Assembly: GCA_022824305.1 (NCBI GenBank) | Contig: JAJEAD010000059.1 | Coordinates: 1 to 64,000 of the forward strand | From: Gammaproteobacteria bacterium | Lineage (GTDB): Bacteria > Pseudomonadota > Gammaproteobacteria > HK1 | Length of the DNA: 64,000 bases | Direction: 5' to 3' | In this document: piece after piece, positions 13,924-30,373 of the stretch | Layout: the number at the start of each line of letters is the position of its first letter | Position numbering within the stretch: position 1 is the stretch's first letter | Notes under the pieces: model-generated | What the model was told of the DNA's origin: nothing | What the model saw: only the letters and a program-made list of their open reading frames with translations | Databases searched by the model: none | Position numbers and translations under genes: made by a program

Positions 13924-15675
13924 TCAACGCTCGTAGCGGTAGTCAAACACGCAGGATGAGCCCACCATCTCGCGAAACCACAGCGTGGCGCCGGTGCCCA
14001 TCGAATCGGTAAGGCGGATCGGCTCGTTGAGGTTGAAGCGAACCGGCTGCTGCTGGCCGTCGTTGACGGCTACGTTGTCGGCATAGAGATAGCTTCGATC
14101 GAGGGTGTCGAGTATCGGGCACAGCCGTCCTTCGATGCCCGGAAGGTGGCCCGTGCGGTTCGGGATGATCAGCGATCCCCCGTGCGGCGCCGGTTGCATG
14201 TCGAGATCGAGAGATCCGTCAGGCTCGTAGCCGCTCGCTACTCTCGCGGAGAAACCCGGCGCGGCGCACAGCACGGTCATCGGCAGCCTCGCGTGGAGGA
14301 CGAAGTCGGCGTACCCGAAGGTGTCGGTATGCGTTTCCCGGTAGGTCTTGTTGGGATAGATCATCAGCACGTGGACGCCCGGAATAGGTGAATCCGTGTC
14401 GCCGTTCCGGACCGTGATGCGCGCCGCGATGCCGTCGGGCAAGGGAGGGCTCGCCGCGGGCAGGACGAGCTTCAGCTCCCGCTCGCCGATCAGCTCGAAG
14501 GTCGGCTTCCTGCCCGCGAGTGAGAAGGTCTCGTCCTCTATGACTGCGACGCCTTCGCCGCGCCTCTCGATGAAGTACCGCCGCCCTCCGGCGCCGGGTA
14601 CCTCACCGACCGGGCACTGGCCGAGCCGCGAGGCCAGGAGCTCGTTGCGCGTGAACTGACTGGTGCGCAGATCGTCGGTCGTCATGGAGTTGCACAGGCC
14701 TCCGGGGGAATAGAGCTCCAGGCGTCCGTCGAACATGAACAGTCGGATCCGTGACCCTCGGATCGCGTAATCGCGGTGCACCACCGCGTTCACGATGGCC
14801 TCGAACACGGCGCGCTCGCTGAACTGTGGCACGTCGGTGCGTTCAGGATCTTTCCGGGCCGCGATTCGCCGGTTGCGGACAACGAAGCGCATTGCATCGC
14901 GGATTTGCCGGTCCAGGGGACCGGCGATGTCCTGGGCGTCGAGCTGCCGGTTGCCGTCCATCCGGTCTCCGCCGTAGTACACCGCCTGGATGTACGCGTT
15001 CGGCAGCCACTCGCGCGGATCCTCGGCGGCGAGCAGCACCCCCCCGATCGTCGCGCGTTGTGTCCCTTGCCGGTCGCTTCTGAGAAACTTGAGCTTCGAC
15101 AGGGCAATGTCAACGGGCTCGTCAACGCGTGAGCTCGCGTATTGCCGCCAATACTCCGGATGCAATGTGTTGATGCCGGTATTGCGGATCACCTGCGTGT
15201 CGGTGCCCGCGGTGTCTGACTGTCCTCGCGAGCGCAACAGGCGCTGAACCTCGGCCGGCTGCATCCTTCGCTTGGTGTCCCCCCGGCGCCGAAAGCAACC
15301 GCCGGGTGAGCTGTGTACGGTGTCACCTGCCGGAATCTCGACGAGCAGAACACCGCCGGGTGCTGGCCCTGGTGTCGGTACGCGATGGATGTTGAAATCA
15401 AGTGGCGGCTTGATGCTGTCCGAGCAGACATCGCTCACAAGATTCGCCAGCGCGTCCAGTTGCGCCGGATCGAGCGATTGCGGCTCTCGGTCGTCCGATA
15501 CGCCCAGGACAAGTCGGCCGCCGGCAGCATTTGCGAAGGCCGCGAGCTCGTCGGCAAGGTCGTCACGGCGGGGAGCGGAGACCCGGCCGCCACGAAACTG
15601 AATCTCCTTAAGCTCCAGGTCGCTGTCTTCGCCGAGCCGGATCTGCTCCCAGAGGCGTGATGCGTCAACGGGCAT
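13924..15675 (-). CDS. AlbA_2 (Schlafen-type) domain protein with RecG-like HATPase_c_4 domain and C-terminal extension
   Basis: The 583-residue protein starts with an AlbA_2 domain (LELKEIQFRGG near 21-31; FANAAGGRLVLGVSD near 47-61). A region similar to the C-terminal part of RecG-related regulators follows (FSERAVFEAIVNAVVHRDYAIRG near 290). The last ~190 residues are an extra beta-rich part resembling a carboxypeptidase-regulatory-like domain (PGVHVLMIYPNKTY, TDTFGYADF) and are unusual for the family. AlbA_2 proteins are called putative transcriptional regulators or ATP-dependent DNA helicases and are common in defence islands. It is on the same strand as the phosphorothioation operon but 135 bases downstream, so it may be a separate unit. 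Confidence 0.7.
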   Translation of the reverse strand: MPVDASRLWEQIRLGEDSDLELKEIQFRGGRVSAPRRDDLADELAAFANAAGGRLVLGVSDDREPQSLDPAQLDALANLVSDVCSDSIKPPLDFNIHRVPTPGPAPGGVLLVEIPAGDTVHSSPGGCFRRRGDTKRRMQPAEVQRLLRSRGQSDTAGTDTQVIRNTGINTLHPEYWRQYASSRVDEPVDIALSKLKFLRSDRQGTQRATIGGVLLAAEDPREWLPNAYIQAVYYGGDRMDGNRQLDAQDIAGPLDRQIRDAMRFVVRNRRIAARKDPERTDVPQFSERAVFEAIVNAVVHRDYAIRGSRIRLFMFDGRLELYSPGGLCNSMTTDDLRTSQFTRNELLASRLGQCPVGEVPGAGGRRYFIERRGEGVAVIEDETFSLAGRKPTFELIGERELKLVLPAASPPLPDGIAARITVRNGDTDSPIPGVHVLMIYPNKTYRETHTDTFGYADFVLHARLPMTVLCAAPGFSARVASGYEPDGSLDLDMQPAPHGGSLIIPNRTGHLPGIEGRLCPILDTLDRSYLYADNVAVNDGQQQPVRFNLNEPIRLTDSMGTGATLWFREMVGSSCVFDYRYER

Positions 15676-15810: not shown

Positions 15811-16956
15811 TCAGTCTTCGTCTTCGATCACCGTCAGATCGCGGGGATTTGCGAGACGCCAGCGTTGGCCCTCCCGGTGCAGGTCGCCTTCGAGTGACAC
15901 ACCCAATCGTCTATCGTGGGCACTTGTGATCCTGCTGTACTCGGCCGGATGGAAGTCCACCTTGACCGATGACAGCGCACCGTCGATCACGGCCTTGATG
16001 GTCACCGTGCCTTCGGGCTCGGACTGGTCACGGGTCAAATTGGAGACGTATCCCTCGATTCGCTCGTCGTAACGCTCCTGTCCATCGCTGAGGATTCGCG
16101 CGGCCTCCTCGAGCACAGGAGCATCAGACGGCGCGAATGCCACCACGGCTCCTTCATCCGTCTGTTCTTCGTGCGGCTGTCTTGTGAGCGCCCAACTGAC
16201 GGATACGTCCAATCCACCGCCGATGTTGATCAGATTGGCGCTGGCCTGGCACAGGTTCGCACTTATGCCTTTCCCGACCCGTTCCTCGAATGCACGAATG
16301 TCTCCCCCGCGATTGAAAAGCTCCGTTGCCTCGCGCGAGGCGCGCAGCCCGGAGACGAGCATCCGGGCGACCCGCCGCTCGAAGGGATCCAACAAGGGCA
16401 GTTGTTGTGCCGATTCCGGCTTTGTCAGCGATGGTGTGACGGGGGCCAGGAGGTTGACCACGAAGCTACCAGGCTCGGTCTGGCCCAGTCGCACGTGCTC
16501 GACATAGGCAGCAGCCTTCTGGTCGCGTCCGGCACGGAACAACCGCTGGGGGCGAGAGGCCGAGCAGGCGGCGGCCAGGAGTAGCTTGCGAGAATCATCG
16601 AGGAGGCTGACGCCGGCGGAGAGAGGGATGGAGCTGTCATCGAACGTCCTGTGCAAGCGCACGCGGATCAGGTCCACCTCCGCCAGCGACAGGTCGGTGA
16701 GCACCGTTGATTGACGGCGATTCTCTACACGGCCGAGAGTCTCGACGAGCTGCATGAGTCTGGTCACATAGTCCGCAAACTTGGCAGACGCTGGTACGAG
16801 GACGGCTTCCCGTTCGTCTTCGCGCAGGCGGTACACGTCACCCGTGTTGCCATGGTAGGGACCCAGCTTCATCCAGCCATTGGCTGCCAGATACGCATGC
16901 ACACCCCGCGGGGTGACGGCCTCGGCGAGCGCGATCTCAGTGGCCTCGATATTCAT
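15811..16956 (-). CDS. Unrecognised 381-aa protein, last gene of the phosphorothioation operon
   Basis: I do not recognise this family. The start at 16956 overlaps the DUF4365 gene stop as ATGA and has an AGGGGG Shine-Dalgarno; frame upstream of it is shadow. It is soluble, with no signal peptide or membrane segment. Visible features are an N-terminal AYLAANGWMKLG stretch, a central region rich in hydrophobic and acidic residues, GQTEPGSFVVNLLAP near residue 160, and an acidic end (VIEDED). No catalytic motif stands out. Tight coupling to the DUF4365 protein suggests the two work together. Confidence 0.75.
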   Translation of the reverse strand: MNIEATEIALAEAVTPRGVHAYLAANGWMKLGPYHGNTGDVYRLREDEREAVLVPASAKFADYVTRLMQLVETLGRVENRRQSTVLTDLSLAEVDLIRVRLHRTFDDSSIPLSAGVSLLDDSRKLLLAAACSASRPQRLFRAGRDQKAAAYVEHVRLGQTEPGSFVVNLLAPVTPSLTKPESAQQLPLLDPFERRVARMLVSGLRASREATELFNRGGDIRAFEERVGKGISANLCQASANLINIGGGLDVSVSWALTRQPHEEQTDEGAVVAFAPSDAPVLEEAARILSDGQERYDERIEGYVSNLTRDQSEPEGTVTIKAVIDGALSSVKVDFHPAEYSRITSAHDRRLGVSLEGDLHREGQRWRLANPRDLTVIEDED

Positions 16957-17468
16957 GGCTTCTGCCCCCTCAGCCGCGCCGTCAGCGGCGCGATCCCATC
17001 CGGGCCGAATCGTTGCACGGTCGGAACCACGATCATCCTTGACGCAGCGTCCGTCGGTTCGGATCCCGGTAGCGATGCCCACCAGCCGCAACGCCGCATC
17101 GTCATATGTTCAACGCTGCACTCCAGCCATTCTGCCTCGTTCGACGGTAGCTCGAGGACGAGAAGTATCAGAGGCGTCATGCGGGTGGTGGTGAGATCGT
17201 TGTAGTTCTTTCCGGACAGCCTGAAATGGAGGCCGTCTTCTTTCCCGTCCGGAGCGGATGTCGCCTTGAGCTGTACGTCGAACTGCGTCCGCATCGAGTC
17301 ACCGGAGCGAATGGTCGCATCGATGCTGTCCATGTCGGGCTGAGGGCCACGCTGACAGGTATAGCCAGCCTTGGCGGCGAGTGCAGCAAGGTAAGCGAAC
17401 GACAGCTCGGCCTTGCGATCGTTGTCGGTCAGTATCCCGTCAATCATTGGCACCAACCTTGCGAACAT
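16953..17468 (-). CDS. DUF4365 domain protein
   Basis: The 171-residue product matches the DUF4365 pattern: an N-terminal helix with AELSFAYLAALAAKAGY, then D/S/I residues (MDSIDATIRSGD), the QFDVQLKAT strand with a Q-x-K, and a later LILLVLELP strand. The D...QLK arrangement is reminiscent of PD-(D/E)XK-like folds, so a nuclease or nucleic-acid-binding role is possible but unproven. ATG 17468 is taken as the start; ATG 17447 (AAGG upstream) is an alternative. It overlaps the next gene by 4 bases and follows the helicase by 37. Confidence 0.7.
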   Translation of the reverse strand: MFARLVPMIDGILTDNDRKAELSFAYLAALAAKAGYTCQRGPQPDMDSIDATIRSGDSMRTQFDVQLKATSAPDGKEDGLHFRLSGKNYNDLTTTRMTPLILLVLELPSNEAEWLECSVEHMTMRRCGWWASLPGSEPTDAASRMIVVPTVQRFGPDGIAPLTARLRGQKP

Positions 17469-17505
17469 GATCTCGAGGTTTTCCGTCCTCTCATTTTTCT
17501 GTCGT

Positions 17506-19173
17506 TTATTGCACCGACTCCGAAAGAAGGTGTTCCACTCCGACTTCGCGCAGCACTCGGGACCACGCGGTGCTCTCGCTCTGAGCGAGACGCTCCACCG
17601 CGTCCTCGAAGAGCGCACGCTTGGATCTGAGGATGCGCTCCAAGGCTTCCTCGATTGTCCCGCGGCAACAGAAACGGTATACCCGCACCTTACGGGTCTG
17701 CCCAATGCGCACTACCCGATCGCGTGCCTGATCGTTGGACGAAGGATTCCACCACTGATTGAACAGGAACACGTGGTTAGCTTCCACCAGAGTGAGCCCT
17801 TCCCCCCCAATGCGGGTCGAGGCGAGTAGCGCGGTCGCCTGAACGCCACCGTTGCGAAAGCGGGTCACGGCGCGCTCACGCTCCACGCTGTCCATCTCCC
17901 CGACCAACAGCGCCGCCGCTTCCTCGCCCCATCGTTGCGTGATCCGGCGTTGCAGCTCCCGTAGCGCTTCGAGCCGGTACGAGAAGACGACCGCCTTTTC
18001 CCCCTGCTCGCGAATGCGATCGAGTAGGGTGAGGACCCGTTCTACCTTGCAGCTCTGTCCGCTCTCTGGGTCGATGTCGCACAGGGACTGCAGCCGGGTG
18101 AGGAGCGCAAGCTCGTCTCCCTTTTCTCCGGTGCGATAACGCCTCACCGCTTCTCGGTACGCCCGGGTCTGGGCAGCGGAGAGATCCAGCACTTCGATGC
18201 TATCGAGTACCGGCGGAAGCTCCTCCAGGACTTCCTGCTTGCGACGTCGCAGGATGTAGGGGCGCGCCCGGCTACGCAGCGAGGAGGGGTGCAGCTTCCC
18301 GTCGGTGGGAGCAAAGTGCTCCGGCGCCACTAGGGAGAGCAGGGTAGCCAAGTCCTCAAGGTCTCGTTCTAGCGGAGTGCCTGTGAGCGCCCAGAAGCGC
18401 CCGGGCCTGAGTTGAAAGCTGCCCGAGGTGACCCTAGCGTCGCGCTTGCGAAGGCGATGCGCCTCGTCCGCAACCATGAGGCCGGGCGGACTCTCTCGCA
18501 GGACCGTGGGGGGGGTACGGAGCTGTTCGTAGTGGGTCAGCAACACGTGACAGCGTCCGGCCACCGTCCTCCAGGCGTCCTCGCGGATCCGTGCCGGCGG
18601 AGTGAGGATAGCGACACCGAGCTCCGGAGCCCAGCGTCCAAGTTCCCGTTCCCAGGTCGCGACCAAACCCTTCGGACAGACGACCAGAGCGTTTCGAATT
18701 GCCGCACGGTTGAACAGCAGGCGCATGGCCGAGATTACCTGTACCGTCTTCCCCAGTCCCATATCGTCGGCCAGAATCGCGCCGCATCGCCCGAGCAGCC
18801 ACTCTACGCCTTGGCGCTGGAAGGGGTAGAGCGCCTTCAGCTCCGGCGAGTCCAGGAGCAAAGGTCGGATCAATTCGCCGGTCCCCAGCCGGAGTGTGCG
18901 GTACTCCGCCAGCGTCTCGCTTCGAACCCGTCCCCCACCGAAATGGGGCATCGCTGGAACGATGACCTGCGGACTCCGCCCCGCCCGGACCAAGTCCCGG
19001 TACTGTGCGTCGAGGTCCAAGGCCCACTCGCTCGCCAATGCGAGTCTGCGTGCAACAGTAGCGGCCTCACTCCTGCCTTCCGAGTGTGAACGGAGGCGAA
19101 GTATCAAGCCGTTGGTGCCCTCATCCTCCTCCCCCCCGACCTGCATCAAGCACTTGAACGAAGGATCAGTCAT
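17506..19173 (-). CDS. SNF2-family DEAH helicase/translocase
   Basis: The 555-residue protein has the two-lobed SNF2 core: Walker A DMGLGKT (about 137-143), DEAH (about 236-239), motif III LTGTP, and motif VI RVVRIGQTRKVRVYRF. It is short and carries no obvious extra nuclease or target-recognition domain. ATG 19173 was chosen because the reading above it is shadow and AAAGGCGG precedes it. SNF2 ATPases move along double-stranded DNA and often power restriction or remodelling modules. Its place 10 bases after a DGQHR gene recalls restriction genes linked to modified-DNA systems. Confidence 0.9.
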   Translation of the reverse strand: MTDPSFKCLMQVGGEEDEGTNGLILRLRSHSEGRSEAATVARRLALASEWALDLDAQYRDLVRAGRSPQVIVPAMPHFGGGRVRSETLAEYRTLRLGTGELIRPLLLDSPELKALYPFQRQGVEWLLGRCGAILADDMGLGKTVQVISAMRLLFNRAAIRNALVVCPKGLVATWERELGRWAPELGVAILTPPARIREDAWRTVAGRCHVLLTHYEQLRTPPTVLRESPPGLMVADEAHRLRKRDARVTSGSFQLRPGRFWALTGTPLERDLEDLATLLSLVAPEHFAPTDGKLHPSSLRSRARPYILRRRKQEVLEELPPVLDSIEVLDLSAAQTRAYREAVRRYRTGEKGDELALLTRLQSLCDIDPESGQSCKVERVLTLLDRIREQGEKAVVFSYRLEALRELQRRITQRWGEEAAALLVGEMDSVERERAVTRFRNGGVQATALLASTRIGGEGLTLVEANHVFLFNQWWNPSSNDQARDRVVRIGQTRKVRVYRFCCRGTIEEALERILRSKRALFEDAVERLAQSESTAWSRVLREVGVEHLLSESVQ

Positions 19174-19183
19174 TGTCCGCCTT

Positions 19184-20548
19184 TCACGCGGACCCTTGGC
19201 GAGTGATGATATGCGCGCGAGCCGTGGCAATCTCCTGCCACATTTTCTCTATACGGTTCTCCTGTGGAGGTTCGGGATAAAGTAGATCCCTCCAATCTGC
19301 GCGCAAGGTACTCGTGTCGTCCTCGTTGAGCGCATCAAGTCCCACAATCCACCGCAGCAAGCGTGCTCCGATATCCACAGCAAGTTTCCGATCCTCGCTG
19401 CGCATGCGCCATGACTGTTCCTCTGGCGCGGACGGCACAAGTAGCAAGTAACGCCAAGGCGCGTTGTGGAGATCCCACGGAACTTCAGCTAGCGGTTTCA
19501 GCGCCGTTTCCATCGACGAAACATCAGCTTGCGCACCCAATCCTGCGCTGTCGAGCAGAGAGCGAGCGATTTCGCCAAACAGCTCTTGTCCTATGGGCCA
19601 AAACAGCAGATGATCCCGATAGTCGTCGGGATTGGGATCGGGCAATTCATGGCTACGCATGCGCTCAGGACCCTCACGAAGCACGGGAAGGGCAAGTAGC
19701 AGGGCATCCCAGCAATTGCAAAGTGTCTGGTAGTAGCGATCAATCTCGCTCTCATCAGGTCGGAATTGCAGAAAGATCCGGAGATCCTTGGCGCGTCCCC
19801 ATTGTCGGCGCCGCTCAGTGGTCATCAACAGAATCTTGTTGACTTCGTAGAGGGTCTGGAGACTGGTGAAGTGGGACGAGCCGGACTTGAGGTTCTTACC
19901 CTTAGTCAAGACACGAAATGACTGATGTTCAGGATATGGGGCGCGAAAAAACTCATGGTCTGTGATCAGTCTGCGAGTAACGATGGCGAAAACATCGTCC
20001 TCGTCCATGATGATGTTCGTGTCTGCATCGGTAGCCTTAGCGTAACGGTTGAGACTGGAGAAAAGACGCCGATAACGTTGCAACCACAGACTGTCATCTA
20101 CACCCTGGTGCTCCCGAACGACCACAATGACCGACAACTGCTCGTCAGCAAATCCCAGCGGCGCTCCCGCCGGATCCGACATCAGTTCCTGTATGGCCTT
20201 CAAGCGATGTTGCCCATCGAGGGCGTAGTAGCGAGGGTCCACCTCGAAGGACAGCTCTCCAAAGGTGTCGCCGAAGCGGGATTCCATGGGAGTCCACCGT
20301 GGGTTGCCGCCGATAGCAGCAACAACGAGGGAGGCGAAGAAGCGGTCGTCGCGACGCGACAGGAAGTTGACGATCTGGTTCTTGACTCTTGATTCATTGA
20401 GTACGCGCTGTATGGCGTCGCTCAATGTCTTGTCTTCCCACAAATCGCTCGCAAGCTGCACTTCGCGCGCCACCTCACGCATGGTCATGCGGACAATGTA
20501 GTAGTCCCAGTCGCCCATGCGCGCTCTAATCGCTGGATAGAGTTGCAT
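19184..20548 (-). CDS. DGQHR-domain protein, second copy (DndB-like)
   Basis: The 454-residue protein carries YALDGQHRLKAI near residues 107-118, with a following R..F..LNRYAK helix. This is the hallmark of DGQHR/DndB-like proteins, whose core belongs to the ParB/DUF262-type nucleotidase superfamily. In Dnd clusters such proteins regulate or accompany phosphorothioation. The sequence around it is visibly AT-richer than the ssp genes. It is not a simple duplicate of the neighbouring DGQHR gene: similarity by eye is limited to the motif region. It may sense modification state or hydrolyse nucleotide for a restriction complex; this is inference. Confidence 0.8.
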   Translation of the reverse strand: MQLYPAIRARMGDWDYYIVRMTMREVAREVQLASDLWEDKTLSDAIQRVLNESRVKNQIVNFLSRRDDRFFASLVVAAIGGNPRWTPMESRFGDTFGELSFEVDPRYYALDGQHRLKAIQELMSDPAGAPLGFADEQLSVIVVVREHQGVDDSLWLQRYRRLFSSLNRYAKATDADTNIIMDEDDVFAIVTRRLITDHEFFRAPYPEHQSFRVLTKGKNLKSGSSHFTSLQTLYEVNKILLMTTERRRQWGRAKDLRIFLQFRPDESEIDRYYQTLCNCWDALLLALPVLREGPERMRSHELPDPNPDDYRDHLLFWPIGQELFGEIARSLLDSAGLGAQADVSSMETALKPLAEVPWDLHNAPWRYLLLVPSAPEEQSWRMRSEDRKLAVDIGARLLRWIVGLDALNEDDTSTLRADWRDLLYPEPPQENRIEKMWQEIATARAHIITRQGSA

Positions 20549-20593: not shown

Positions 20594-22420
20594 CTACACT
20601 TTCTCCTTCCTCTTCTTCTCGATCTTGTCCAACTCGCGCTCGATCCGCCTTATGTGATTACCAGCCAGTTTGTTGGCTTCCCCATTTACAGCGTCCGTTA
20701 GCGGTCTGCCGCCGTCTGGGTACTTCAGTTTGAGCGGCGGTCGAATCTCCCTTCTGTACCCCCGAAATACCGTGCCACGTAGAGATTCAAGAAGAAGATC
20801 CCTTGAAGCAGGCCAATCGCCCTTCCACTGTTTAGGTATTGGCCAACCATATGCCGTCGTAAGGAGCTGTAGGTATGCACCCAATGCGGACTCCGCGTGC
20901 TCTAGACGGTAGTTGACAATAACATCACTGTGATCTTCCACTATATGACGCAATAGTTTTCGTTGGGGTGTTCTGCGGTGAAGCTCTAGCCATTTGTCAT
21001 GGTACAAGCGGTTCAGTGCTGTCACGAACCACTTCGCGTACTCCATCCATGGGGGCCGAGAAAAGATGTAGTGTAAATTGCCAAACGCGCAGAAGACGCC
21101 GCGCATGCCAATGTCGAGATCTACAGGGGGCTTCAGCCATTCGCCCTTCAATTCCTCGATTTCCTGCTTGAGAGTGACAAGCAAGCGATCGACATCCTGC
21201 TTTACGGCATCGGGGGCAAGGTTCGTTCCAAAGCGCAACTCATAGAACGCATGACGTGCAAGATCGGACTGCTGAGACTTCTCGTGCTTCCGCTCCAGCT
21301 CACGGAGGGCCGTGACATATGAGCGGTAAGGATAAAAGTTCTCAAGTACATGGGCAACGGCTGGTAGTAACTCTTTGCCAGCCAGTTCTCGCAACTGCTT
21401 AGAATCGGAGTGGTTCAGTGTTCGATCATGGAAGGCATCGTGTAGCCTATTTGCCGGGTTGATACCCAAGGCGATCTCTTGATCGGCGTCGAAATCCTCA
21501 CCAAGTATGTAGTACTCGAACCAATCATGGATCTCCTTGATGCCTTTGACCGCCGCGGGCGCATGGACGCGTCGCTGCTCGCTTTCCTCTCCACGCCAGT
21601 CATAGAATAACAGCGGCAAGCGTCCAGATATCCGTTGATCAGCCGACATCAGGTCATTCGCATGAGAGAGTTGTACTAACTCTTGCGTACAGACCGCGTT
21701 TACGCTCTCATCGGAAAGCAGTATCTCTCGCGTTGGATTGACCCTCTGGGCTTGGGTGTTGATGTAGACAAATATGCTGCGTACTACGTCGAGGACACTC
21801 GGTGGGTCTGTTTGATCGGTGTCTGCTCGGAAGGATACCACTACAATGGGTATCCGCCACGTGCGGAAGTTGGGATGAGCATCCGTTTGACGGTCATGTC
21901 TGAAGCGCTTTAGGGCCGACAGCCGATGTTGTCCATCAATGGCGACAAGTTTTGTTCGAATATCGTTCCACTCCAAGACGGCGTACTGAGGATAGTCACG
22001 TATCCAGCGAACGCAGTGAAAGGTCGGCCTTTCTATCAGATCCCATTCATTGCCATCCTTTTGTACGGAAGACTTGATGGCCCTGGGCATCTGCGAAAGA
22101 ACTAGGTCGTCATCGTCCTGCATCGGAAGCAGCGTTAGCGTGAGAGGGTTGAAGAACTTGATTTTTTCCGCATCCTGTAGATATGGAAGCAGTGAGTTCG
22201 TTATCCGGTCATTGTCGACGTCGCGTTGAAAGAGATCACTTACTGGCCATCGCTCGGAGCCCCTGATGTCGCTGATTAGGGAGATCCAATCCAACTGTAC
22301 GGGAGTGAGCGCGGATTGAATGTAGAAGGCATTAATTCCGGCACCGGATCCGAATTGCCCGTATACACCGTGGAGCTGATGGTTGTATTGTTGTTTTACT
22401 ATCGGGGGGTTGACAGGCAT
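20594..22420 (-). CDS. DGQHR-domain protein, first copy
   Basis: The 608-residue protein has LVAIDGQHRLSALKRFRHD (about 163-181), followed by the second conserved patch FVYINTQAQRVNPTREILLSDES (about 218-240). This arrangement is typical of full-length DGQHR proteins. The C-terminal half is helical and ends in a very basic tail (ELDKIEKKRKEKV). TAGGA sits 8 nt before ATG 22420. The gene is about half AT, in contrast to the 65-70% GC genes around the operon, which suggests a different recent origin. It lies 9 bases after the GIY-YIG-like gene and 45 bases before the second DGQHR gene. Confidence 0.8.
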   Translation of the reverse strand: MPVNPPIVKQQYNHQLHGVYGQFGSGAGINAFYIQSALTPVQLDWISLISDIRGSERWPVSDLFQRDVDNDRITNSLLPYLQDAEKIKFFNPLTLTLLPMQDDDDLVLSQMPRAIKSSVQKDGNEWDLIERPTFHCVRWIRDYPQYAVLEWNDIRTKLVAIDGQHRLSALKRFRHDRQTDAHPNFRTWRIPIVVVSFRADTDQTDPPSVLDVVRSIFVYINTQAQRVNPTREILLSDESVNAVCTQELVQLSHANDLMSADQRISGRLPLLFYDWRGEESEQRRVHAPAAVKGIKEIHDWFEYYILGEDFDADQEIALGINPANRLHDAFHDRTLNHSDSKQLRELAGKELLPAVAHVLENFYPYRSYVTALRELERKHEKSQQSDLARHAFYELRFGTNLAPDAVKQDVDRLLVTLKQEIEELKGEWLKPPVDLDIGMRGVFCAFGNLHYIFSRPPWMEYAKWFVTALNRLYHDKWLELHRRTPQRKLLRHIVEDHSDVIVNYRLEHAESALGAYLQLLTTAYGWPIPKQWKGDWPASRDLLLESLRGTVFRGYRREIRPPLKLKYPDGGRPLTDAVNGEANKLAGNHIRRIERELDKIEKKRKEKV

Positions 22421-22429
22421 CTCTAGTTC

Positions 22430-23056
22430 CTACTTTAAGCTGAATGGGGGGCGGCAGAACTGCATAAGGAGCCGTTCGATCAATTTGTCGACGTCGTCTT
22501 GTGCAAGGTCTCCAAAGGCTCTGTCTAGTCCTCGCTCTGTCTTTATGCAGACGAAAATCAGATCACTCACGCTGACCTTGAGTCCGAGCGTCGTGACGTA
22601 GTTTGTGAACCTGGAGTGAAATGCACTTCCGGTTGTGTGTTCCAGATAGCGGCGTCTTAGGTTGCTAGTTCGACCGACGTAAAGGGGAGGCATCAGTAGA
22701 CTAGCTTCCAGGAGGATCTGTTGAAGTGCATGTCGCGTGGGGTTATCCGCATAGATGTTGTTCCAGGTCGCACGGATGTCGTCTGTGGCGTGGAACGCGG
22801 CCTTGGGTCGTACTCGCAAGTTCATGGATTGCCATGTGAAGGACACATCTATCTCTTTTTCCGATACGTGGTCGTACGAAACCATGTTACCTATGATTTG
22901 CATGAGTTCATCATGGTTCTCACGGTAGAACCATAGAGGCAGAAACCAAGCGTAACAGCCGGGTTCTTCAGGTACGTCGTGGCGTGTTTCTTTGGTGTAG
23001 AAGGCGAGCCGGCCGTCGACGCTTTCCAGGTTTCGGAAGGCGTTTAGAGGTCCCAT
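22430..23056 (-). CDS. GIY-YIG-like nuclease with long insertion
   Basis: The 208-residue protein has PGCYAWF (GxY at 33-35) and PLYVGRTSNLRRRYLEH (YVG at 126-128, Arg near 136, His140). A C-terminal Glu (E194) precedes a RPPFS end. This matches the order of GIY-YIG catalytic elements (GxY, YxG, R, H/Y, E). About 90 residues separate GxY from YVG, where usual members have about ten, so either the fold holds an insertion or the first motif is fortuitous. ATG 23056 is 8 bases past the cysteine desulfurase stop; the longer upstream frame is shadow. It is a good candidate for the DNA-cutting subunit. Confidence 0.65.
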   Translation of the reverse strand: MGPLNAFRNLESVDGRLAFYTKETRHDVPEEPGCYAWFLPLWFYRENHDELMQIIGNMVSYDHVSEKEIDVSFTWQSMNLRVRPKAAFHATDDIRATWNNIYADNPTRHALQQILLEASLLMPPLYVGRTSNLRRRYLEHTTGSAFHSRFTNYVTTLGLKVSVSDLIFVCIKTERGLDRAFGDLAQDDVDKLIERLLMQFCRPPFSLK

Positions 23057-23064
23057 GTCGTTGA

Positions 23065-24309
23065 CTATGCTCCCAACTCTTGTAAGCGACAGACCGCTTC
23101 GGCAATACGGCGGGAGGCATAGTGGAGTTCGGCGCGGGTTGTGCTGCGGCCTACGGCAATTCGAAGCGAAGCATGGGCTTGTTCTTTGCTGCGACCGATT
23201 GCACGCAGAACGGGCGAGGGTTCTGGAGTGCCGGAATGGCACGCTGACGCAGCTGAGATGTGGAGATCTGGGAGACGGGCGACTAGTGCATCCGCATCGA
23301 TGTCCTTGAATGTCAGTGAGCTGAAGCCGGGCAATCGATTGTCCAAGGCGCCATTCAGTGTGGTGTGTTTGATTCTGTCTTGGATTAGTGTCTCGAAGTC
23401 GTTTCGGAGTGTGGCTATTCTTCGTGCATCTTCGGGGAGTCGCTCGGAGGCGAGTCGGACCGCCTCGCCGAAGCCGGTGATGGCTGGGGTGTTGGATGTA
23501 CCGGGGCGCAGACTATGTTCGTGCCCGCCACCAAACAAGAGAGGAACGATGGGTGCGCGTGTGGGGCCGCCGCACACCCACAAGCCGCCTACACCTTTCG
23601 GGCCATAGCACTTGTGGGCGCTGAAGGAGGCGAAGTCGAGACCGAGTATTTCGACGTCGAAGGGGATCTTTCCGAGGGCTTGCGTCGCGTCGCTGTGTAC
23701 GAGGGCACCATGGTCATGGGCGAGACGAGCAGCGGCGGCGAGGGGCTGGATGGTTCCGATTTCGTTGTTAGCGGTCTGGATGGACAGCAGTAGGGTGTCG
23801 TCCCCAATAGTCGCTTCGAGTGCGGCAAGGTCGACGGTGCCGTCCGAGTGCACCGGGGCGATAGCGAGGTGGTAGCCTCGTTTGCTTAGGTGCCGACAGG
23901 GGCCGAGCACCGAGGGATGTTCAATGCCGAGGGTGACGATGCGTCGGCGGGAGTCGCCGCGTTTTTCGGCCGCGGCGGCAACGCCTAGAATGGCAAGGTT
24001 GTTGCTTTCAGTGGCGCCGCTCGTAAAGACGATTTCCTCCGGGAGGGCGTTGATGGCCGCGGCGACCTGTTCGCGCGCTGTTTCAACGTATTGGGCTGCG
24101 CGCTGTCCGGCCGTATGGGAGCTGGAAGGATTTGCAAACTCGTGGACTGCGATGCGCCTCATCAGGTCCGCTACAGCGGGATCGCAGGGGGTGGAGGCTG
24201 CGTAGTCGAGATAGATCCGCCGCGTAGGTGCCTGCCCAGCCGACTTGGCGCCGGCTGGCGGCTCGGGACGTTCGAGTGCGGGATCACTCACAGGTGACAG
24301 ACCAGGCAC
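23065..24309 (-). CDS. sspA: Cysteine desulfurase of the DNA phosphorothioation operon (SspA/DndA-like)
   Basis: The 414-residue PLP enzyme has the IscS/NifS layout: LDYAASTP, TSGATESNN, H131 in IEHPS, PLP lysine K233 in SAHKCYGPKG, and catalytic C357 in SAASACHSG. It mobilises sulfur from cysteine and hands it to the ATP-pyrophosphatase. The start is GTG at 24309 with GGGAGG 5 nt upstream. It overlaps the preceding gene by 22 bases. Without its neighbours it could be a housekeeping IscS; the operon placement makes SspA/DndA the better call. Confidence 0.85.
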   Translation of the reverse strand: MPGLSPVSDPALERPEPPAGAKSAGQAPTRRIYLDYAASTPCDPAVADLMRRIAVHEFANPSSSHTAGQRAAQYVETAREQVAAAINALPEEIVFTSGATESNNLAILGVAAAAEKRGDSRRRIVTLGIEHPSVLGPCRHLSKRGYHLAIAPVHSDGTVDLAALEATIGDDTLLLSIQTANNEIGTIQPLAAAARLAHDHGALVHSDATQALGKIPFDVEILGLDFASFSAHKCYGPKGVGGLWVCGGPTRAPIVPLLFGGGHEHSLRPGTSNTPAITGFGEAVRLASERLPEDARRIATLRNDFETLIQDRIKHTTLNGALDNRLPGFSSLTFKDIDADALVARLPDLHISAASACHSGTPEPSPVLRAIGRSKEQAHASLRIAVGRSTTRAELHYASRRIAEAVCRLQELGA

Positions 24310-25100
24310 CCGTCCTCCCCGTCGTCGTCCAGTTCCGAGAAACCGAAGGCTTGAGCGAGATTTCGTGGTCGTCTGCGGGCGGCGAGGCGCTCGCGCCGCT
24401 CACGCTCTCGTTGCAGGATTTGTTCACGACGCTCCGCCCGTTCGAGATCGGTCAAACTCTCATCCCGAATCCAGGTGTAGCCTTGCTCAATCTTCTCGTA
24501 GCCCTTGGCGAGTTCGAAGAGTTCCGGGTGGCGCTCGCGTAGGCGTACCCATTCGGCCTTTTGCTGGAAGAAGCAGAAGTAGCAGCCGGAACGTGAGCGC
24601 CACTCGTAGTAGCTCGGCAGACCGACTCCGCTCTCCTCGAGAATGCGCATCACCCCCGGTTTGTCGATGCCGTCATCCTTGAACGGAAAGACCGCTCGAA
24701 TGTTGTCCTTTGTAGATATGTATCCGCTGCGTCGCTCATCGGAACGCAGACCAACGTAAAGCAGCGTGGGATCGTCGCCGACATATCGCTCGAAGGGCTC
24801 TATCTTCAGCAGGCGGGTGCACCATCGCTGCTTGGGGGAGGGGAGGTAGTCGCCGTAGAGCTTCAGATAGTGGTCGAAGCCGCGCTCGGCGTGATGGGAA
24901 GCAAGGCGTTCGATCGGCTTACCCAGGTACGCTTCGATTCGGGTCAGGTACTCGTAGGTCTCCGGTAGCTCTTTGTGCGTATCGCAGAAGACGTACTCGA
25001 AGTTACGTTCCGGATTACGGTCTCTGAGGTAGAGCGCGAGCGCGGTACTGTCCTTGCCTCCGGAGAGCATGACAACGTGTCTGTGATTGGCAGTAGTCAT
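24288..25100 (-). CDS. sspD: PAPS-reductase-like ATP pyrophosphatase (SspD/DndC-like)
   Basis: The 270-residue protein has the PP-loop SGGKDS (13-18), the RWCTRLLK segment with C94, and CYFC (C173, C176). C94, C173 and C176 are arranged as iron-sulfur ligands in DndC-type enzymes. A further CLVC (C265, C268) lies at the extreme C-terminus. It would adenylate the DNA backbone and insert sulfur supplied by the desulfurase. It overlaps sspC by ATGA and sspA by 22 bases. At 270 residues it is nearer to SspD than to the larger DndC. A BREX-4 BrxP is the other PAPS-reductase-like option but its partners are absent. Confidence 0.82.
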   Translation of the reverse strand: MTTANHRHVVMLSGGKDSTALALYLRDRNPERNFEYVFCDTHKELPETYEYLTRIEAYLGKPIERLASHHAERGFDHYLKLYGDYLPSPKQRWCTRLLKIEPFERYVGDDPTLLYVGLRSDERRSGYISTKDNIRAVFPFKDDGIDKPGVMRILEESGVGLPSYYEWRSRSGCYFCFFQQKAEWVRLRERHPELFELAKGYEKIEQGYTWIRDESLTDLERAERREQILQRERERRERLAARRRPRNLAQAFGFSELDDDGEDGCLVCHL

Positions 25101-28100
25101 TCGGCTGCGTGTTGCACCTCTTCAGGATCTCTTTCGATACTTGCTGGTAGCAGGTCGCGTGCTGCCAGAGCCAGCGCCATCAACTGCGAGCGGTGATCGA
25201 GGCCGCTTCGCTTCGCTGCGCGTTGCAGTTTCTGCATGAGCTGCGCTACGGGGACACGTTCCTCCCTTGACACTGCCACCACCGCGCGGCGTTCGCTCGT
25301 CCCTGGCTCCAATAGACCAATGCTCGCTACGGTTGCTGCCGCGTCGCCTCCCGCAGCGGCAACCAACTCGCTGAGAGTGTCGCACTCCGCCGCCAGAACG
25401 CGCAACTGCGATGCGAAGGCCTCGGCGTCCTGATCGCGCCAGTGAGTGGGTGGCTTGCCGCCTAGAGCTGAGCGGGCGAGCCCTTCGCGCCAGTCTCGGC
25501 CATTCTGCGTGGGCGCCTGTGCGGCCTCTTTCAGGAACACGCGTAACTTGGTGTTGCCGGCGTACTGCACGAGGGGCAGGGTGCGGTGGCGCAGGGCCTC
25601 TCGCAGTTCTCGGCCGCGTTCGTGCATGCCGAGGGATTCCCGTACTTGCTCTTCGACCTCATCAAGCAGGTCCGGAAACGCGCGCGTCAGGTCTCGAATG
25701 CTTCCGCGCAAACGACGCGCGAATAGCGTTGGGCCGTCGGTGGATTTGAAATCCACGCCTAGCGCCCGAGGTAGGTCCTCGAGCAGCAGGGAGCGGGGGT
25801 CTCTTGCATTGTGCAGCAGCTCCCGCACGGCCCGGGAGGACGCAGGGAGGCGCTGCGTGGAGCGCGCGTAGGGCGGCAGCGTTCCGGTCAAACGTACGAG
25901 CTCTCGCACGATTTCGATGAGGCCAGCGGTGTTCTCCTTCGACTCGTCGTTGCCGGGGCGCGTCGTCTGCCGAGCCAGGTCTCCCAGGGCTTCGATCACC
26001 CGGCGCTCACGTGCGTTGAGCCGATAGCAGCGCAACGCAAAGGTGTGAGGCCGGCGTACCAGGCGCTCCAAGGTCTCTATGCCGACGTCGGGGACGAAGA
26101 GGCCATCCTCGTAGAGCGCCAACTCCTCTCCCTTGACTTGAAGAACGGCGGCTATCAGCACCGGCAGAGGGCCTTCCCGGAGCCCGAAAGGGGGAGCGGT
26201 GAGCGATTCGATCAGCTCGGTGAGCGGACGCTGGCGATCTCTCGCTCCAGCGAGAAAGCGTTCGATTTCTCGCCAGACGGGCTTCCATGGCGAACGGCCT
26301 CGGCTGGCCGGTGCGTGCAGCCGGAAGGCGTCATCGACGGCTTTGCCGTGAAAACCGCCCTCGACGAGCAGGGCCTGGTACATGCTGTACTCGGGCGGGA
26401 AGCCCTCGATACCGAGGCGTTCGCGGTGGCTGTCGAAGACCATTCGCTCCAGCAGGTTGCGGCGTGCCCGTGCGGCGGCACTCGACAGGTCTGCACGGTT
26501 CAGCAGTTCGTTGCGCAGCGGAGGAGCATCTTCGTACGTCTCATCGCAGATCCTCGAGAGCAGGTCCTGCAGCTCGCGCGGGTGCTTTGGATCCGGAGAG
26601 CACCTTCGCCCCTGGTAGAACCACATCGAAGCCCCTGGGTCGAGCACGTGACCGAGCAGACCGAGGGTGCGGCCCGCGGCGCGTTCGAAACGGCTGCGCG
26701 CGTCTGCGCTGCGTGCCATGACCTCCTGCCGGGCAACTGGGTCTCCCTCCAGTTCGGGGAGGTTCTCTCGTACCCATTGCCAGCACTCGAGTTCGTTCAG
26801 TTCCTCGGCGAGCCGCGCTGCGGTGTGGGGTGCCGCTATCAGTACCGGCTTGGTCGTGCTGAGTACGCGGCTGAGGGCGCGCGCCCGTTCATCGCGGGTC
26901 TTGGTGTCGAGCGAAGTATCGACCAGGAAGAGCACGAATCCGTCGGCCCGTGACGTTTCGGTGAGGGCGCTTTCCACCGAATCAGCGGAGAACGTCGCCA
27001 TTCGTGGCTCGAAAAAGCGCAGCGTGCCGGTCCTTATGTAGTGTGCCCGAGCCACCAGCGGCCGCGGCCGACCGGCGCGCAGCAGGCGCTGGTGCAAAGG
27101 CTCGCCGCCGTGCTGTCCGCGCGCCGCCTCGAATGCGGCCTCAAGATCGATGTCGGAACCTTCCCACAGCCCAAATGCCCTGCGATGGCGCCGGTAGACG
27201 ATGATGGATTCGCGCTCCAGCAGGGCAATCGCCTCGTCTGCGCTGTCGCGGTTGCTCTCGTTGAAGGCGGCGTGGAGCAGTTCCCGGCTCGGTCGTAGTC
27301 CGACCGAATCGCCATACAGGGCGAGTAATCCGATGCTCTTGACGAGGTCACGAGCAAGCGGCGGTGCGGCGGCGGGTACGCGCTCGATCGCGTGCGCGAT
27401 CAGGCTCCACTTTCGGGCGTCTTGTCCGGTGAACGCCGCTGTGCCGAGTGCGCTGAAGACGTAGTCGTAGAGAGCAGGCAGGCCGTAGAGTGGGGCGTGT
27501 CGCGCTGAGGCGCTTTCCCGTGAGAGAAACTCCTGGAAGCCGTGAGGCTCATGGCTGCTCAGGAATGCGAAGAGCGAACGCTCATGCTGTGCGATCTTGC
27601 TGCGGAAGAGCGGCCACAGGATCAGCGCAGTGACAGGATGCAGAGGCAAGCAGTCGAAGACTCGATCTCGGAGGCCTTCGCGTTCGAGTGCTTCGCGCAA
27701 GCCTGCCTTGGCCGAGATGCGATTGAAGCGCCGCTCGTAGGTAGGTCCGAGGTGGGTTTCGAGTGCGCAACCTATGAGGTCGAGGAACTGCTCGCCGGGC
27801 AGGGAGAAAGGAATGTCTCGGAAGCGACCCTGAACCTTCTGCCACTCGGTACGGCGTGCTCCTGCGCCATCGGCAACGTAGTCTCCGAAGCTGGAGTGCA
27901 GCACGCCCATGAATAGCAGGGGAGTTGCGGTGCGGGCCGCTGCTTCGGCGATCTGCTGCAAGAGGAAGACATCCTCGCCGGGTTCCTGGGCCGCGTACTC
28001 GAGGTACTTGCCGAGTTCGTCCACGATCAGCAGAAGACCGCCCGGAGTGCCGGCGGCGGCTTGGATGAGCAGCTCGGTGGCTGCGGCGCCCGCGGTTGCC

Positions 28101-28555
28101 GGGTTCTTGAGCAGCCGGCGTGCCCGGCTCGCAATGGAGCGAGTCGCGGCGCCGCTTGAAAGCAAGGCGTTCAGGATAGCCGGGAGAAGGGGCGCTCGCT
28201 CGGCCTGCACCAGCACCGGCTGAAGCGGCTTCTTGCGGCGGAGGTGAGTCTTGCGCAACTCGCGAGCCTGGGGGTGTCCGGGCTTGGCATTCGCGAGCAA
28301 ATCGGTGAGGAACAAGGCAAACGCGGACTTTCCGGTGCCGTAAGGGCCAGTCAGGGTCCAGGCCCGGGCGCCGCCTTCTCTCCCGAGTTCCTGCAGGATC
28401 TGTCCGGCGAATCCCAGCAATGCGGGAGTGGCCAGGTAGTCGCCCGAATCGTGCGGCGCTTTCCAGTCGTGGGGCAGATGTACCGAACGATGGAATCGCC
28501 CGCGGACGTGCACGTGCTGATCCAGCGTGGTCGTCGGGAGTTTGCCCCGATTCAT
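25097..28555 (-). CDS. sspC: Large P-loop ATPase (SspC-like)
   Basis: The 1152-residue protein has Walker A GPYGTGKSAF (70-79) and Walker B LLLIVDELGKYLEYA (about 174-188; D179, E180). A sensor-like region with LLFMGVLHSSF and an EWQKVQGRF segment follow, and then about 800 residues of mostly helical sequence. It is linked by ATGA overlaps to the DUF4007 gene upstream and the PP-loop gene downstream, which is the sspBCD order. In such systems the ATPase is needed for modification, probably by driving the nickase and sulfur-transfer proteins on DNA. BrxC/PglY is a distant alternative; no PglZ or BrxL accompanies it. Confidence 0.75.
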   Translation of the reverse strand: MNRGKLPTTTLDQHVHVRGRFHRSVHLPHDWKAPHDSGDYLATPALLGFAGQILQELGREGGARAWTLTGPYGTGKSAFALFLTDLLANAKPGHPQARELRKTHLRRKKPLQPVLVQAERAPLLPAILNALLSSGAATRSIASRARRLLKNPATAGAAATELLIQAAAGTPGGLLLIVDELGKYLEYAAQEPGEDVFLLQQIAEAAARTATPLLFMGVLHSSFGDYVADGAGARRTEWQKVQGRFRDIPFSLPGEQFLDLIGCALETHLGPTYERRFNRISAKAGLREALEREGLRDRVFDCLPLHPVTALILWPLFRSKIAQHERSLFAFLSSHEPHGFQEFLSRESASARHAPLYGLPALYDYVFSALGTAAFTGQDARKWSLIAHAIERVPAAAPPLARDLVKSIGLLALYGDSVGLRPSRELLHAAFNESNRDSADEAIALLERESIIVYRRHRRAFGLWEGSDIDLEAAFEAARGQHGGEPLHQRLLRAGRPRPLVARAHYIRTGTLRFFEPRMATFSADSVESALTETSRADGFVLFLVDTSLDTKTRDERARALSRVLSTTKPVLIAAPHTAARLAEELNELECWQWVRENLPELEGDPVARQEVMARSADARSRFERAAGRTLGLLGHVLDPGASMWFYQGRRCSPDPKHPRELQDLLSRICDETYEDAPPLRNELLNRADLSSAAARARRNLLERMVFDSHRERLGIEGFPPEYSMYQALLVEGGFHGKAVDDAFRLHAPASRGRSPWKPVWREIERFLAGARDRQRPLTELIESLTAPPFGLREGPLPVLIAAVLQVKGEELALYEDGLFVPDVGIETLERLVRRPHTFALRCYRLNARERRVIEALGDLARQTTRPGNDESKENTAGLIEIVRELVRLTGTLPPYARSTQRLPASSRAVRELLHNARDPRSLLLEDLPRALGVDFKSTDGPTLFARRLRGSIRDLTRAFPDLLDEVEEQVRESLGMHERGRELREALRHRTLPLVQYAGNTKLRVFLKEAAQAPTQNGRDWREGLARSALGGKPPTHWRDQDAEAFASQLRVLAAECDTLSELVAAAGGDAAATVASIGLLEPGTSERRAVVAVSREERVPVAQLMQKLQRAAKRSGLDHRSQLMALALAARDLLPASIERDPEEVQHAAE

Positions 28556-29550
28556 GTCCCTTCAATTCCGTAGTAGTCCGCCAAGAGCTCCAGAGGGTCG
28601 CGTTCCTCCTTGCGGATTACCCTGCGTTGGCCGGCGGTCTCGTCGTACTGGAACCCCCGACTGGAGGGCATCCGTTCCAGGATTTCGACCAAGTCTCGGT
28701 CGCGCAGCTTGAACGCCGCTCCGGGACTGCCCGGGTCAAAGAGCACGCGCTCCAGCGCCAGAACCTCTCCGCCCGGCGAGTTGTGGAGCCAGTAGTCGGC
28801 GAGTGCGAATGCGAGCACATCGTCGGGCAGACTGGGCCGCGGTCCACGTTCGAACGCGAAGCGACCGGCACCGGCGCGGCTAAGCAATCCGAGTTCGGCG
28901 AGCGGACAATCGAAGCTGTCCTCGAGGGGACGCCGGCGGTCGTCCCTCGCGGGAAGGTAGGTGCGCAGGAAGACATCCACATCCCGCTTTATCGAAGGAA
29001 GAGAGCTGCGGGTCGCCCGGGCTTCGTGTGCGCAGCGCAGCAGCCAGCGTGCAAGCTCGTCTCGGGTAAAGACGCTCTCGCCCCAACGAGTGAAAGCCAG
29101 ATGCCAAGTGGAAGCAGGGAACGGTCTCGAAGCGAGCTGCCAGTGGAGCAGCCAGAGCGTCCCCGGGTCTTCCAGGTAGGGGTCGGCTCCCGCCCGCGCG
29201 TCGGGTGCAGCACTCTTCCGGGCGGCGGAGGATGACGCGGAACCAAAGAGGAGCTCGGCGAGTGGAGTGAGGGCGCCGCGTCGCCCGTGCATCTCGATGA
29301 GCCCAAGCGCCTCGCACCAGAAACGGATTGAGGCGACCATGTTCTTGCCGACGCCGAGCCGAACGAGAGCGTCAGGTTGGGCGAACACCTCGGGGTCGGC
29401 CTGCACGGCGGCTATCCCCTTGGGCAGCCACGCGTAACGGAATGGGAAGGTCTGGTGGCCGGAAAAGCTGTACCGGGTCGAATTTCCCCACCAGCTTGAG
29501 CCTTGGGTCGGGGTTGTTTGGCTCTCCGAGCGGGCCGTCAGCCCCACCAT
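28552..29550 (-). CDS. sspB: DUF4007 protein (SspB-like nickase candidate)
   Basis: The 332-residue protein carries the DUF4007 signature: FSGHQTFPFRYAWLPKG (29-45) and LGVGKNMVASIRFW (65-78). A mostly helical remainder rich in Arg and Asp follows. SspB of the Ssp phosphorothioation system is a DUF4007 protein reported to nick DNA; that part is family knowledge. It is the first gene of the operon. AGGAGG lies only 3 nt from ATG 29550, a tight spacing that may lower initiation. A 164-base gap with no gene separates it from the PIN toxin and must hold the operon promoter; TGTAAACT on the minus strand is a possible -10. Confidence 0.8.
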   Translation of the reverse strand: MVGLTARSESQTTPTQGSSWWGNSTRYSFSGHQTFPFRYAWLPKGIAAVQADPEVFAQPDALVRLGVGKNMVASIRFWCEALGLIEMHGRRGALTPLAELLFGSASSSAARKSAAPDARAGADPYLEDPGTLWLLHWQLASRPFPASTWHLAFTRWGESVFTRDELARWLLRCAHEARATRSSLPSIKRDVDVFLRTYLPARDDRRRPLEDSFDCPLAELGLLSRAGAGRFAFERGPRPSLPDDVLAFALADYWLHNSPGGEVLALERVLFDPGSPGAAFKLRDRDLVEILERMPSSRGFQYDETAGQRRVIRKEERDPLELLADYYGIEGT

Positions 29551-29714: not shown

Positions 29715-30131
29715 TTACGTGTGAACCGGCGTTTCGAGGCCCTCCAGCCGTGCCGCTTCACTCAGCGTTCGGTCGAGCGTGGCGAGCGGGAGGCGCATCC
29801 GCAGGGCGAGCTCGAGGTACATGGCGTCATCGACGGAGAGACGGTGCGCGTTCGCGAGCCCGAGCGTCCTGCCCCATACGCGCGAAGTGGAGACGGGGTC
29901 GATCTCGATGGGCAGCGCGTCCAGGTGGGCGTAGAGCTGCTCCCATTCATCGGGGTCGATTCGTCCCCGGCGGGTTGCAACGAGGAGCACATTGGCCACC
30001 TCCATCGGCCACAGTGCCGGTGCGAAGGCACGTCCCTCGACGAGTGAGTCCCGCAGATGGTCGGTCACCTCGGTAGCTTCGTCGGGGAAGAGCCAGGCCA
30101 GGGCGACCGAGCAATCGAGCACGAAGGCCAT
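29715..30131 (-). CDS. vapC: PIN-domain toxin, VapC family
   Basis: The 138-residue protein has the acidic PIN residues: D6 (FVLDCSVALAWLF), E44 (MEVANVLL), D101/D102 (LSVDDAMYLELAL) and D120 (LATLD). VapC toxins are Mg-dependent RNases that cut tRNA or rRNA. The start overlaps the antitoxin stop by one base (TGATG), the usual coupled arrangement. Confidence 0.9.
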   Translation of the reverse strand: MAFVLDCSVALAWLFPDEATEVTDHLRDSLVEGRAFAPALWPMEVANVLLVATRRGRIDPDEWEQLYAHLDALPIEIDPVSTSRVWGRTLGLANAHRLSVDDAMYLELALRMRLPLATLDRTLSEAARLEGLETPVHT

Positions 30132-30373
30132 CAGAAGCGGCGACCCGCTTCGATCATCCGGCGGACCGAGAGTCCCCGGAGGCGGTGAGTCTCCTGGAAC
30201 GTCTTGAGGCCGGCGATGGCCGTTCGGACCCTGTCGGCATCATGGGCTCCGAACGGAATCAACTCGGCCACCGGGCAATTGTGTTTCGTGATGACGAAGC
30301 GCTCCCCGGATTTCACCCTCTGGAGCAGCTTCGGCAGATGCGTCTTCGCATCAAATGCACCGATTTCAGTCAC
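30131..30373 (-). CDS. vapB: Phd/YefM-type antitoxin paired with the PIN toxin
   Basis: The 80-residue protein opens with IGAFDAKTHLPKLLQRVKSGE and FVITKHNCPVAELIP, the DNA-binding half of Phd/YefM antitoxins, and ends with a basic toxin-binding tail. The start is GTG at 30373 with no strong Shine-Dalgarno. It would neutralise VapC and repress its own promoter. Confidence 0.88.
   Translation of the reverse strand: MTEIGAFDAKTHLPKLLQRVKSGERFVITKHNCPVAELIPFGAHDADRVRTAIAGLKTFQETHRLRGLSVRRMIEAGRRF

Follow-up and report, generated by a model that had tools for sequence, protein, structure and literature searches.

The gene at positions 22,430 to 23,056 on the minus strand of the window (the whole 64,000-nucleotide stretch of DNA analysed here) belongs to a family of GIY-YIG proteins with a long insertion between their two signature strands, and it probably encodes an endonuclease that does the cutting in a restriction effector of two genes, linked to DNA phosphorothioation (PT). 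The gene and the parts of it that carry this reading are as follows.

22430..23056, minus strand: GIY-YIG-like nuclease gene (GIY), 208 amino acids, stop codon included; assigned from its translation, the family HMM and the invariant catalytic columns
22943..22960, minus strand: first signature strand, G33-C-Y35-A-W-F38 (GxY), with G33, Y35 and W37 invariant; strand 33-38 in the model
22691..22942, minus strand: insertion between the signature strands, residues 39-122, placed from the model and the family length range
22673..22681, minus strand: second signature strand, Y126-V-G128, with Y126 and G128 invariant; strand 126-130 in the model
22637..22651, minus strand: R136-x3-H140 on the following helix, invariant in 48/48; helix 133-142 in the model
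22475..22477, minus strand: E194, a predicted metal ligand on helix 186-201, invariant in 48/48

The resemblance to GIY-YIG nucleases that the initial annotation had noted is real and beyond chance. Several stop codons interrupt the plus strand of this interval in the frame read, placing the gene on the minus strand. A family HMM made only from homologs in other genomes found the window open reading frame (ORF) at an E value of 1.6e-8 before it was included; the ORF scored 34.9 bits, and 2000 shuffled versions of it reached at most 6.2 bits. The match and the shuffling control exclude a chance ORF or a misread strand. The Pfam GIY-YIG model (PF01541) aligns to residues 125-167 only (E 0.0082), and its 16.9 bits fall under the curated cut-off of 22.6 bits, which is a database threshold and not a structural feature. 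We attribute this partial match to the insertion, which separates the two GIY-YIG motifs and breaks the profile. Family-wide, 22 of 48 members match PF01541 at E<=0.1 (best 1.2e-4). No model of Pfam, NCBIfam or PADLOC covers the family, and PHROGs returned no match for it. The window protein is a divergent member, only about 13-22% identical to the rest, and as a sole query it found no relatives in genome contigs, class genomes, plasmids or viral contigs.

The family was reached through the neighboring gene product, a protein with a DGQHR motif (DGQHR#1), which as a query found weak plasmid relatives. At most of the plasmid loci the ORF directly 5' of the DGQHR gene reads GxYAWYY ... PIYIG and either bears the label hypothetical or lacks annotation altogether. 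Scanning genome contigs with a pattern derived from the DGQHR alignment added 80 further loci. A GIY HMM seeded with three of the upstream ORFs only, the window being left out, identified 60 homologs; every one of them lies directly 5' of a DGQHR gene, and most are next to an Ssp or Dnd cluster. The loci were thus collected through the DGQHR motif and not through PT genes. When 399 genomes of the phylum were searched with a profile, the window copy alone was returned, which marks the family as rare. The GIY gene lacks annotation in Asticcacaulis excentricus plasmid pASTEX02 (L006:7298-7966) and is called a hypothetical protein in Asticcacaulis sp. DW145 (L008:7307-7966). In a Trichormus variabilis 0441 plasmid (L005:7291-7974) an in-frame stop splits it, and the two parts are annotated as separate hypothetical proteins; the same is seen in ATCC 29413. 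The DGQHR gene downstream in strain 0441 has no such interruption.

The residues that a GIY-YIG nuclease would use are conserved throughout. An alignment of 48 homologs contains ten invariant columns (G33, Y35, W37, P124, Y126, G128, R136, H140, E194 and P203). They include G33 and Y35 of GCY (33-35), Y126 and G128 of YVG (126-128), R136, H140 and E194, all read earlier from the sequence alone in catalytic order and with correct numbering, and all invariant in 48/48; three more, W37, P124 and P203, go beyond that reading. In R136 and E194 (both 48/48) the family has counterparts of two hallmarks of the superfamily, the Arg of the helix that follows YIG and the Glu that binds the metal. The spacing from Y126 to R136 is 10 residues, the same as from Y17 to R27 in I-TevI (PMC2630997, PMC1952068), and that from R136 to H140 is 4, as in the R-x3-H formed by R104 and H108 of Eco29kI. 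No conserved C-terminal Asn of the UvrC/I-TevI kind was found in the family, whose last residue is N in 17/48 and R in 16/48; this Asn belongs to the UvrC/HEase lineage only, is absent in Slx1 (PMC1564403) and is not required across all subfamilies. A near-invariant C-terminal G-R of the family is also absent from the window protein, which has S206 and L207 instead. Judged from these residues, the protein is very likely an active nuclease. That it is a catalytically dead GIY-YIG fold serving as a binding or regulatory subunit, a reading that the missing Asn and the lost G-R tail would suit, is scarcely credible given Y35, Y126, R136, H140 and E194 in 48 of 48 sequences.

The initial annotation had placed about 90 residues between the signature strands, and the count bears this out: the gap from the GxY Tyr to the YIG Tyr is 90 residues in the window protein and 88-124 (median 108) over 48 members. 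It had also described the connection as a long helical segment. The connection is long, but it is only partly helical in the AlphaFold model, with helices at 45-59, 93-103 and 105-119 and a low-confidence stretch at 60-89. The model has a mean pLDDT of 74.6, mostly >80 in the core, and predicts strands at 33-38, 126-130 and 167-171 and helices at 133-142 and 186-201. Both motifs thus fall in predicted strands, and the 11 top matches in a Foldseek search of PDB folds are all Eco29kI or UvrC GIY-YIG domains. The UvrC match has a TM score of about 0.64 on the UvrC length; the Foldseek E values (0.23-1.2) are each individually insignificant, a weakness that an insertion of this length would be expected to produce. 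Motif invariance, the predicted strand positions and the UvrC TM score of 0.64 agree with GxY and YxG lying on neighboring strands of a three-stranded sheet. A comparison of the family profile with UvrC (E 0.015) aligned two separate pieces, 'PespGlY' and 'PlYIGvaknLreRlkqH', one for each half-motif. The window protein almost certainly has a GIY-YIG fold. The distinct long-insertion subfamily that had been suspected is borne out by the 60 homologs, their invariant catalytic residues, the two-part UvrC match and the predicted fold. This conserved family shows that about 90-120 residues can be inserted between the two signature strands, and standard GIY-YIG models therefore tend to miss it.

The genes around GIY place it in a PT operon, as follows.

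28552..29550, minus strand: SspB (DUF4007); PF13182 E 5e-77, PADLOC SspB
25097..28555, minus strand: SspC ATPase; PADLOC SspC E 1e-285
24288..25100, minus strand: SspD, PAPS-reductase-like sulfur transferase; PADLOC SspD E 5e-111
23065..24309, minus strand: SspA cysteine desulfurase; PADLOC SspA E 2e-132
20594..22420, minus strand: DGQHR#1, a 608-amino-acid protein of the DndB/ParB superfamily; TIGR03187 E 5.9e-8 (under cut-off), PF14072 E 0.0027
19184..20548, minus strand: DGQHR#2, a 454-amino-acid DndB homolog; PF14072 E 1.1e-31, TIGR03233 E 3e-21
17506..19230, minus strand: SNF2-type helicase, 574 amino acids or shorter (start codon uncertain); PF00176, PF00271

The contiguous, PADLOC-matched SspB, SspC, SspD and SspA identify an SspBCDA single-strand phosphorothioation cluster. 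It lies upstream of GIY, with DGQHR#1, DGQHR#2 and the helicase downstream; 8 nt separate the SspA stop from the GIY start and 9 nt the GIY stop from the DGQHR#1 start. The GC content of GIY (51.8%) and DGQHR#1 (51.9%), against 59-66% for sspABCD, suggests that the two arrived together. The helicase resembles the helicase part of ZorD/DpdE, and no nuclease domain was found in it; no methyltransferase was found among the operon genes scanned. GIY carries the sole recognized endonuclease domain among the genes of the operon, and nucleases replace it elsewhere (see below); this context supports the earlier suggestion that it would be the operon's likeliest DNA-cutting subunit. The initial annotation had named neither the SspBCDA operon nor the constant DGQHR partner.

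The link to PT extends to the other carriers. The neighbors are SspB/C at 33 of the 61 loci, DndB and DndC at 17, and SspD, on short contigs, at 2. Of the other nine carrier genomes, 7 have SspD, or DndC above the curated cut-off, in a genome-wide search, and the two without either are MAGs. SspD or DndC is thus present in 59 of 61 carrier genomes, compared with about 6% of sampled genomes (in the phylum sample, DndC in 8/249 and SspD in 8/249, the SspD count including the window's own genome).

GIY and the DGQHR gene have also evolved together. Over 56 loci their pairwise distances correlate at r 0.93, rising to 0.96 for the Ssp-type loci; against SspD, either protein reaches only 0.43-0.48 (0.46-0.48 for GIY), and no permutation out of 2000 exceeded 0.14. 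The pair therefore looks to have been inherited as a unit and recombined with different modification modules. We rejected the idea that GIY is a mere marker of Ssp loci, since it accompanies Dnd as well and its co-evolution is with DGQHR and not with SspD. The partner family has invariant motifs in 38 sequences, the window copy included (Q65 R66, D162-R166, F217 and N221; that is, QR, DGQHR and FxxxN), and motifs of the form QR, DGQ(H/Q)R and FxxxN are common to DGQHR and the GmrS/DUF262 domain (PMC4619093). The predicted structure of DGQHR#1 is poor (pLDDT 66.6), and a fold search with it matched no solved structure; the SspE-like role that we infer for this protein has its basis in sequence motifs only. 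There is a strong probability that GIY works with DGQHR#1, which we propose to be its obligate partner and the sensor/NTPase.

At some loci another nuclease holds the GIY position. A full SspE (PADLOC, 1081 bits) sits between SspD and the DGQHR gene at L069:7405-9762, and an HNH-type protein sits directly 5' of the DGQHR gene at L057:3103-4449; GIY is missing from both. Fifteen Dnd loci of the actinobacterial type that lack the long GIY (L016, L017, L019-L023, L025-L027, L029, L033, L051, L065 and L089, the last an IMG/VR contig) have a canonical short-spacing GIY-YIG two genes upstream, in the row short GIY-YIG, MzaB/MutL-like HATPase (in most) and DGQHR, mostly near DndA/B/C. The canonical GIY-YIG of L017 had no PADLOC match. 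Canonical and long GIY-YIG occur together in L030, L081 and L087, and the canonical form is therefore a module in its own right and does not strictly substitute for the long one. In the cyanobacterial Ssp loci L064, L085, L084, L005 and L004, an extra set is attached to Ssp: downstream of the GIY-DGQHR pair come genes for a PbeA/RadD-like helicase, an MzaB-like HATPase, a PLD-family protein and SspA.

The observations support a model in which the GIY and DGQHR proteins quite probably form a PT-linked effector against invading DNA. SspBCDA would put PT marks on host DNA, and DGQHR#1, related to the NTPase half of SspE/DndI/GmrS, would bind DNA, read its PT state via nucleotide hydrolysis, and hold or release the GIY-YIG subunit. 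The latter would then nick or cut DNA without the expected mark, such as that of a phage or plasmid, with chemistry performed by Y35, Y126, R136, H140 and a metal on E194. The whole would amount to an SspE-like effector split over two polypeptides, GIY-YIG replacing HNH. The sign of the PT effect, taken here as protection and not as a trigger, is the least certain part of this model. The insertion most likely contacts the DGQHR partner and/or DNA. We give about even chances to the fuller version, in which the two genes form a PT-sensing restriction system common to single-strand (Ssp) and double-strand (Dnd) phosphorothioation, the insertion is a docking or gating module for DGQHR, and the system is the partner of part of the sspBCD clusters that lack SspE and SspFGH.

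Rakesh et al. described standalone URI/GIY-YIG nucleases at Dnd-locus boundaries and proposed a suicide role for them (PMC10853773), and the corresponding alternative here is an abortive-infection effector, a nuclease silenced by DGQHR and freed on host DNA when a phage inhibits the PT system. Such a role would also fit the way in which the pair moves among Ssp and Dnd clusters without following the SspD tree. However, GIY lies inside a tight operon (8-9 nt gaps) and not at a boundary or on the opposite strand, and its slot can hold SspE, a PT-sensing nickase; we consider this alternative unlikely. It is very improbable that the protein is a type IV enzyme cutting PT-modified DNA, like ScoMcrA, with DGQHR as the PT reader: proteins with a ParB-like fold such as SspE and DndI do read PT (PMC11662687), but an enzyme of that kind, encoded alongside the genes that write PT, would turn on its own cell unless kept under tight control. 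Even less probable is a part in modification, in which GIY would work with SspB-D and nick the strand to let sulfur in. GIY is operonic with sspA-D, and a review counts DNA-nicking components in PT installation (PMC12707154), but most Ssp carriers in the phylum samples have no GIY (the window copy is the only one in 399 genomes, with SspD in 7 other genomes of 249), GIY also rides with Dnd, whose modification proteins differ, and it does not co-evolve with SspD.

The PT-linked effector that we favor resembles several known systems in part. The type II restriction enzyme R.Eco29kI is the best PDB match and has the same Y-Y-R-H-E active site, R-x3-H spacing and insertion-enlarged core, but its tyrosines Y49 and Y76 are 27 residues apart, as opposed to 91 in the window protein, its partner is a methyltransferase and not a PT system, it has no known DGQHR partner, and it keeps N154. 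Assignment to the Eco29kI type calls for Y-Y-R-H-E-N and an adjacent methyltransferase; the window family has no conserved Asn, and its neighbors are PT genes. The UvrC N-terminal domain and I-TevI share, respectively, both half-motifs and the Tyr-to-Arg spacing, but about 10 residues separate their motifs, and their C-terminal Asn is not conserved in the long-insertion family. SspE and DndI combine a ParB-like NTPase (D-G-Q-Q-R in DndI) with an HNH nuclease and treat PT as the mark of self (PMC11662687). These DUF262-DUF1524 proteins are likewise nucleases of PT clusters with a D-G-Q-(Q/H)-R ParB-like NTPase half, and SspE can fill the GIY slot, but they are single polypeptides with HNH, whereas two genes and a GIY-YIG are involved here. 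An SspE has DUF262 and DUF1524 in one protein; neither is in the GIY protein, and DGQHR#1 is of the DndB/DGQHR type, without HNH. SspFGH is also a restriction partner of sspABCD but consists of different genes, SspF having a Walker A motif and SspH being DNA translocase-like, with no GIY-YIG or DGQHR reported (PMC8092258).

The URI genes near Dnd are also GIY-YIG superfamily nucleases beside PT genes, and to that extent the association was known (PMC10853773). The account of those genes is short and ties them to Dnd only and to cluster boundaries, and its main text mentions neither a long insertion nor pairing with DGQHR nor a link to Ssp. No description of the GIY-YIG/DGQHR pair, the long insertion or the Ssp link was found in the literature searched, whose scope did not extend to bioRxiv, most subscription journals or supplementary tables. 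What is new is the long-insertion subfamily and a candidate PT-linked effector module. Wang et al. (2021) found 2,211 of 2,678 sspBCD clusters without SspE and SspFGH and asked about other restriction partners (PMC8092258). Part of this gap could be filled by the GIY-DGQHR pair, a concrete and cloneable candidate that would also suit Dnd loci without DndFGH; GIY itself is a strong candidate for the 'scissors' that some PT systems lack.

A GmrSD-family protein whose best PADLOC match is HEC-06/Orf5 (G000:C74:92788-93468; L093) lies about 63 kb from the Ssp operon and is not a linked SspE. The region after the operon in the window looks like a defense island, encoding the PADLOC candidate PDC-M02B (15811-17091; E 3e-118), a Schlafen/AlbA_2-HATPase protein (13924-15675) and a DUF4365 protein (16953-17705). 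On the other side, 5' of SspB, lies a small gene pair (29715-30373) that by eye resembles a PIN toxin and a Phd-type antitoxin.
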